Source of the DNA: Chloroherpetonaceae bacterium
GTDB lineage: Bacteria > Bacteroidota > Chlorobiia > Chlorobiales > Thermochlorobacteraceae
Length of the DNA: 64,000 nucleotides
Assembly (NCBI GenBank): GCA_033763895.1
Contig: JANRJQ010000004.1
Coordinates: forward strand, 669,001-733,000
Direction of reading: 5' to 3'
A program made the translations under genes and the position numbers. How positions within the stretch are numbered: position 1 is the first letter of the stretch; every line of letters starts with the position of its first letter. Below, piece after piece: positions 28,409 through 30,184 of the stretch. Below the pieces are notes generated by a model. The model was not told the DNA's origin and searched no databases. It saw only the letters and a program-made list of their open reading frames with translations.

Positions 28409-29122
28409 TTAAGGCAAATTGTTGGGGAGCAAGACTTGCAAGGGTTTGACCATTGTTCCTGTGCGAATTGCTTTTGCTTTGGTGTAGGCACGCCGCACCT
28501 CGAGCCAATACTTTCCGGGCTTGAGCGCAGGAATTTGAAAGATGAGTTTCGATTCGGTGCGTGTGGCAACAGTGGTTGCTTTCGTTTCGGTGTTGGATTC
28601 ACTGATGAAGAAGATTCCCTCCTCTGCGTTCTTTGGATCAAACTTCAACCGTTTTCCTCTGATTTTCCCAATTTCTTTAGGCGTAAGAATTTGGTTTTGA
28701 GATTCTGAGGCGATATCAAGAAATTCTAAAATTTCTGGTGCCGCCGGCGCTTGGGATTCCTTTTCTGCCGTGAGGGTTTCCATTTTGCTATAAAGCAGCT
28801 TTCCGGCAGAAAGGGTTGCTTTCACTTTATGCCGCTTTGCATTGAATCGATCAGTGCTTCTATCGAACACCCCTGAAACTCCCACGCGAATATTGACGAG
28901 CGGAAGGTTCACAAAATTCCCATCTGCCACAACTTCTGTGACCACATGAAAAAATAAATCCAATACCGCCTTTGCATCCGCTTCGGAGACCATTGTTCCG
29001 TAGGATTTCATTTCACGGATAATTTTTTCAGTGTTATAGACATGATTGGGACGAACTCGTGCAATGAATTCCTTGCGTTTACGCGAGACGTGATTGAACT
29101 GTAAGTTGTATTTGACCGGCAT
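28409..29122 (-). CDS. HU-like DNA-binding protein with C-terminal DUF4469-like domain
   Basis: The 237-residue protein begins with a HU/IHF-like fold variant seen in Bacteroidota (MPVKYNLQFNHVSRKRKEF, IIREMKSYGTMVSEADAKAVLDLF, FVNLPLVNIRVGVSGVFD). Residues ~130-230 form a second, beta-rich domain (LTPKEIGKIRGKRLKFDP, then LKPGKYWLEVRRAYTKAKAIRTG) resembling the DUF4469 Ig-like domain usually attached to such HU proteins. DNA binding is inferred from family; the target is unknown. It is transcribed alone; the two small RNA genes lie upstream. Confidence 0.75.
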   Translation of the reverse strand: MPVKYNLQFNHVSRKRKEFIARVRPNHVYNTEKIIREMKSYGTMVSEADAKAVLDLFFHVVTEVVADGNFVNLPLVNIRVGVSGVFDRSTDRFNAKRHKVKATLSAGKLLYSKMETLTAEKESQAPAAPEILEFLDIASESQNQILTPKEIGKIRGKRLKFDPKNAEEGIFFISESNTETKATTVATRTESKLIFQIPALKPGKYWLEVRRAYTKAKAIRTGTMVKPLQVLLPNNLP

Positions 29123-29310: not shown

Positions 29311-29416
29311 TAAAAAAAATGCCGCACCATCTCAAAAGTGCGGCATCCCTCCAATAAAACGCACTGACCAACCACATTCAGTGCATTTTTCCTACATAAC
29401 ATATACCAATAGAAAA
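29311..29416 (-). ncRNA. Small RNA A of a tandem pair
   Basis: The predicted RNA is ~106 nt on the minus strand. From the promoter at 29452-29423 it would start near 29416. It then has a leader (CTATTGGTATATG...GTAGGAAAA), a hairpin GCACTGA-N10-TCAGTGC (29384-29361, extendable by A-T pairs), a GGAGG-containing linker, and a terminator TGCCGCAC-N10-GTGCGGCA followed by eight T. The second copy at 29487-29594 shares every element at the same spacing. GGAGG is followed by a four-codon frame (MPHF, stop), but only one base separates them, so translation is doubtful. It may belong to the Chlorobi-1 RNA motif; that is not established here. Confidence 0.65.
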
Positions 29417-29422
29417 CACCGA

Positions 29423-29452
29423 AATATAAAAAGCGAACCGAATTCTTGTCAA
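29423..29452 (-). promoter_or_regulatory. Promoter of small RNA A
   Basis: TTGACA (29452-29447), 18 bases, TATATT (29428-29423) on the minus strand. The flanking AAAAAAGGAC upstream of TTGACA and the TATATTTC extension are shared with copy B. The element also fits the Bacteroidetes TTG...TAnnTTT arrangement. Confidence 0.7.
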
Positions 29453-29486
29453 GTCCTTTTTTCTATTTTTGTTTCATTGGTGGGAA

Positions 29487-29594
29487 CAAAAAAAATGCCG
29501 CACTTTTTACAAGTGCGGCATCTCCTCCACCATCCGCGCATTGACACCCAGCAATCAATGCGCTTCCCTATGCCTTATGCCAGTAGTTACCCTA
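29487..29594 (-). ncRNA. Small RNA B of a tandem pair
   Basis: The predicted RNA is ~108 nt on the minus strand, from near 29594 to the T-run at 29488. It has a leader (CTACTGGCATAAGGCATAGG), a hairpin GCGCATTGA-N10-TCAATGCGC (29563-29536), a GGTGGAGGAG linker and a terminator with the same TGCCGCAC/GTGCGGCA stem as copy A. Compared with copy A, the fourth pair of the first hairpin changes from C-G to T-A on both sides, a compensatory change that supports RNA structure. A four-codon frame (MPHL, stop) follows GGAGG here too. The target is unknown. Confidence 0.65.
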
Positions 29595-29600
29595 CAATGA

Positions 29601-29630
29601 AATATAAAAAGAGAAACAAATTCTTGTCAA
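29601..29630 (-). promoter_or_regulatory. Promoter of small RNA B
   Basis: TTGACA (29630-29625), 18 bases, TATATT (29606-29601) on the minus strand, the same boxes and spacing as copy A, with the same AAAAAAGGAC upstream. Confidence 0.7.
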
Positions 29631-29716: not shown

Positions 29717-30184
29717 TTATTTCGCTTTTTCTAACTGACCAATCTTTTTCCAGCCGGGCTCAGTTTTCAAAACGATTGAAATGTAAAGATCGGCATCGGG
29801 GATTGCCCCAATCTCTTCCTTTTTCATTTCTGCATTAATGATATTCGGCTCAAGGGAATACATCGCGCCGGTGATGGCATCAATCGCAAGCCCAATCAAT
29901 CCTCCAAACAGAATATTTCCCCAAACCCATCCGTTGCTTGAAGTTGTAAGAACAACTTCATAAGGTAAAAATCCCGCGAGATCGAGTTTAATTTTATGTT
30001 CGTCTTTTCGTTTTAATTTTACTTTTGCGGGTGTTTTGGCGAGTATCACATTATTAACCGTAATCGAAGCTCCGCTCGGTGTGCTTGAAATTGCAATGTC
30101 TTGCGAGCTTCCACTCATTATCGACGCACAGCCGGTGAAAGTCAAAAACACAGTTGCCGCTGTAAGAATAACAATCGATTTCAT
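29717..30184 (-). CDS. PEGA-domain lipoprotein
   Basis: The 155-residue product has a lipoprotein signal with lipobox TGCA near residue 19 (MKSIVILTAATVFLTFTGCA). Residues ~27-80 fit the PEGA domain (ISSTPSGASITVNNVILAKTP), a small beta-sandwich found on surface proteins. A hydrophobic glycine-rich stretch (WGNILFGGLIGLAIDAITGAMY, residues ~88-109) could be a second membrane or outer-membrane contact. A GGAG ribosome site stands six bases before the ATG. Function is unknown. Confidence 0.8.
   Translation of the reverse strand: MKSIVILTAATVFLTFTGCASIMSGSSQDIAISSTPSGASITVNNVILAKTPAKVKLKRKDEHKIKLDLAGFLPYEVVLTTSSNGWVWGNILFGGLIGLAIDAITGAMYSLEPNIINAEMKKEEIGAIPDADLYISIVLKTEPGWKKIGQLEKAK

Follow-up and report, generated by a model that had tools for sequence, protein, structure and literature searches.

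A tandem pair of candidate small RNA genes in a Chloroherpetonaceae genome in which no Hfq or CsrA was found

OmrA and OmrB are adjacent paralogous genes for trans-acting small RNAs (sRNAs) that have separate promoters and separate terminators, and both are dependent on Hfq; Hfq and CsrA are the commonest two protein partners of sRNAs. Within the Chlorobiales, the described RNA of closest design is Chlorobi-1 (Rfam RF01696; Weinberg et al. 2010, PMC2864571), which has two hairpins with the loop signatures ACGCC (hairpin 1) and TGGGGGAC (hairpin 2). Narrow searches of the open-access literature returned, for Chlorobi RNAs, nothing beyond this bioinformatic description of motifs from 2010, and no study of a transcriptome. 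The window analyzed here is a 64,000-nt stretch of a Chloroherpetonaceae genome (assembly GCA_033763895.1, contig JANRJQ010000004.1), in which two related minus-strand units lie 178 nt apart from copy to copy, a spacing also recovered by automatic repeat detection. Like OmrA and OmrB, they adjoin each other, have a promoter and a terminator each, and are partly conserved and partly diverged in sequence; unlike OmrA and OmrB, they reside in a genome in which no Hfq was found, and no sequence relation to that pair was seen, Rfam giving no match.

Each unit consists, in order, of TTGACA-N18-TATATT, a leader of ~30-35 nt, a first hairpin, a GGAGG linker of 12-14 nt and an intrinsic terminator. In copy B, the promoter occupies 29601..29630 (-35 element at 29630-29625, -10 element at 29606-29601; 11 of 12 consensus positions) and is followed by a predicted RNA of ~107 nt (29488..29594), with its start placed 7 nt past the -10 element and its end at the last T of the T-run (29488). 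The predicted fold of this RNA comprises hairpin 1 (GCGCATTGA / TCAATGCGC, with the 10-nt loop TTGCTGGGTG; 29536..29563), the linker GGATGGTGGAGGAG (29522..29535) and the terminator (29488..29521). In copy A, the promoter lies at 29423..29452 (-35 element at 29452-29447, -10 element at 29428-29423; likewise 11 of 12 positions), and the predicted RNA of ~105 nt (29312..29416, start and T-run end at 29312 assigned in the same manner) comprises hairpin 1 (ATGCACTGA / TCAGTGCGT, with the 10-nt loop ATGTGGTTGG; 29359..29386), the linker TTTATTGGAGGG (29347..29358) and the terminator (29312..29346). Both terminators have the form ATGCCGCAC / GTGCGGCAT plus eight T, with arms of 9 bp if the A-T closing pair is counted and a stem identical between the copies. 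Direct reading of the sequence thus bears out the anatomy given in an earlier, sequence-only reading of this DNA. The pair is flanked by a PEGA-domain lipoprotein gene (29717-30184, minus strand) and an HU-like/DUF4469 gene (28409-29122, minus strand), the proteins of which had no match in eight other family genomes at the thresholds applied.

A search of the 3.55 Mb genome for exact TTGACA-N18-TATATTT gave two sites, those of copies A and B, versus no occurrence of the reversed control pattern. Promoter-like sites are present in the region at background frequency, and a scan placed the promoters of the two copies as its top two; their promoter blocks are identical at 40 of 48 positions. CTTGACA-N17/18-TATATT is also found upstream of the SRP RNA (two loci), the 16S rRNA and rplU (the ribosomal protein L21 gene) within the same family, so that this form probably represents a strong housekeeping promoter class. 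Its remaining occurrences lie ahead of, or inside, ordinary open frames, and the promoter alone is therefore no marker of an RNA gene. All 21 matches to CTTGACA-N17/18-TATAWT in family genomes read TATATT and none reads TATAAT, a hint of a -10 preference particular to the lineage.

The predicted RNAs fold far better than their shuffled counterparts (z = -5.83 for copy A and -5.25 for copy B, with 0/200 shuffles equally good), and together with the promoter counts this agrees with the earlier argument that the pair is more than a chance repeat. Hairpin 1 has a 9-bp stem in both copies, in which 5 of 18 positions differ with no pair broken. The sequence-only reading had reported one compensatory C-G to T-A change in a 7-bp stem; this change (C-G/U-A, inside the stem) is present, but the longer stem also holds a second two-sided change, A-U/G-C at its base, together with one one-sided change, U-G/C-G. 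Divergence elsewhere amounts to 6 of 10 positions in the loop, 7 of 14 linker columns with 2 more gapped, and 12 of 40 positions plus 7 gapped columns in the leader, versus 0 of 18 in the terminator stem. The equal lengths and spacing claimed earlier hold only as a net result, because the alignment contains 10 gapped columns (indels of 4, 3, 2 and 1 nt), and these indels argue against coding on either strand; no common reading frame beyond four codons was found in both copies. In simulations with five random stem substitutions, all nine pairs were kept in ~0.3-1.3% of cases at ordinary transition fractions, and in up to ~7% when 90% of the substitutions were transitions. A column-shuffle test gave 126/500, significance being out of reach from two sequences alone. 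The pair-preserving changes in stem 1 are thus good but not overwhelming evidence, from two sequences only, for selection on RNA structure, and two small RNA genes with a pair-preserving hairpin, as first proposed, are still the best reading of the anatomy.

The earlier reading had left two options for the identity of the pair, a known motif such as Chlorobi-1 or a new one. The window pair resembles Chlorobi-1 in being a short hairpin RNA in tandem units with an intrinsic terminator in the same bacterial order, although tandem units ahead of an intrinsic terminator, while common to both, are not specific. RF01696 has a membership cut-off of at least 50 bits in covariance-model score, and it had no match in the window pair at the gathering threshold, nor any up to E 10 in a 501-bp region with permissive filters; neither ACGCC nor TGGGGGAC occurs in the window copies. 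On both grounds the Chlorobi-1 identity was rejected, and Chlorobi-1 is a separate family of similar design. Rfam as a whole, searched at gathering thresholds and at E 10, yielded nothing credible, only chance matches, the best being rli43 at 21.5 bits (cut-off 100), which corresponds to the terminator. The window genome has a Chlorobi-1 match of its own on another contig (G000:C11:10424-10490), scoring 24.2 bits against the cut-off of 50. A second Chlorobi-1-like unit directly follows it (the pair at L076:1501-1625), with one terminator 3' of the second unit, and both units show the two-hairpin fold with ACGCC- and GGGGGAC-type loops. Chlorobi-1 exceeded the cut-off in 17/41 genomes and 0/14 controls, and sub-threshold matches similar to this second pair were found in most other family genomes, so the RF01696 threshold misses the lineage. 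Tandem Chlorobi-1 arrays of 2-4 copies, spaced by ~145-570 nt, were observed in many Chlorobiales genomes.

A covariance model built from the window pair recovered both copies (131.5 and 127.7 bits) but no credible further member, whether in 101 relatives, in a sample of 395 genomes from the phylum or in 98 genomes from the order (its own included). Matches outside its own genome were weak (27-38 bits), and the seven that were inspected, the best at 38 bits, owed their alignment essentially to a terminator of generic type and to an A/T-rich leader; their hairpin 1 was absent or ill-formed. A DNA similarity search in relatives found no homologue, phage, plasmid and viral collections gave no match, and a pattern scan of GTDB contigs returned a single Clostridia terminator that reached merely 14 bits in the model. 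The pair was not seen in eight other family genomes; in seven of the family genomes the region upstream of yceD-rpmF was not alike in a synteny comparison, and the model had no match there even with filters off. The window pair is therefore new, as the second option had it, without an Rfam family or a relative in any genome searched. Since the window genome is the sole representative of its genus in the genome set, other members of the genus may carry the pair as well.

Each unit carries its own promoter, by sequence, and a stable predicted fold that closes with a rho-independent terminator, the features of the sRNA gene class, and we consider it likely that the two are independently transcribed, intrinsically terminated sRNA genes. 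A tandem duplication would have given rise to two sibling genes for non-coding RNAs of ~105-107 nt, and transcription of both is expected from their promoters to be strong and largely constitutive. The stable 9-bp hairpin would display a 10-nt G/U-rich loop for Hfq-free pairing to target RNAs, and divergence of this loop on a conserved scaffold would give the siblings different or partly different targets. The predicted fold pairs the purines of GGAGG with the U-tail, and the linker would most likely serve mainly as the terminator side of this pairing. Hfq (PF17209) had no match in the window genome or 20 relatives, and CsrA (PF02599) had none in the window genome, while positive controls matched in both searches; the two commonest protein partners are thereby removed. 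The sRNA pair is probably lineage-specific and Hfq-independent. Action in trans by loop pairing is the mechanism that we favor, but as a tentative inference, less likely than not: targets predicted among the 44 start regions of the window did not outscore shuffled controls.

The several GGA motifs, the strong promoters and the tandem copies would also suit RNAs that bind a protein, as CsrB- or 6S-type sponges or scaffolds do, through the GGA motifs or hairpin 1. This is unlikely, as CsrA was not found in the window genome, the RNAs are far shorter than 6S RNA and match no Rfam family, and the loop is their most divergent part, unlike a conserved protein site. Still less probable is a cis-acting leader or attenuator, in which premature termination would govern read-through into the HU-DUF4469 gene. 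That gene lies on the same strand with its start codon ~190 nt downstream of the copy A terminator, and no further strong promoter was seen in between; however, neither unit lacks a promoter or a complete terminator of its own, what comes after copy B is the promoter of copy A and not a gene, and removal of the terminator 3' arm revealed no single alternative antiterminator common to both copies, all of which make such a role unlikely. The element was also missing upstream of the HU-DUF4469 paralogues of the same genome. A recent tandem duplication without present function, retained by chance, would fit the finding of no relatives outside the window genome, but it is very improbable given that divergence is uneven and spares the -35 and -10 elements, the terminator and the pairing of stem 1. 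Least plausible of all are tiny mRNAs in which GGAGG precedes ATG CCG CAC (TTG/TTT) and a stop, for although this four-codon MPHL/MPHF frame is present with its stop in both copies and a standard 16S tail can pair with either linker at -11.9 kcal/mol, the GGAGG-ATG spacing of 1-2 nt is too near for normal initiation, and an SD-like motif precedes just 9 of the 44 start regions in the window. The frame is moreover part of the terminator's 5' arm; this accounts for its conservation and, with the spacing, makes it probably a by-product.

As sibling sRNA genes, the window pair is a sequence-based orphan prediction of a familiar kind, that of bacterial small RNAs. The fuller picture is less likely than not: an undescribed, lineage-specific family of sRNAs with rRNA/SRP-class promoters, in a branch of the Chlorobiales lacking Hfq and CsrA, in which the siblings would control different targets by means of their diverged loops and with no known chaperone. 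A sibling pair with strong predicted promoters, in a genome in which neither Hfq nor CsrA was found, would offer a clean system for studying how sRNAs reach their targets in the absence of both.

Two further observations concern the surroundings. A gene for the bacterial small SRP RNA, scoring 66.9 bits with Rfam model RF00169, lies at 2463-2561 of the window on the minus strand. Arrays of short degenerate repeats, e.g. CTATAAGGCATAA and ACCGTGATTATGC, flank the HU-DUF4469 paralogues (at L023 downstream of 2205 and at L024 upstream of 1501).
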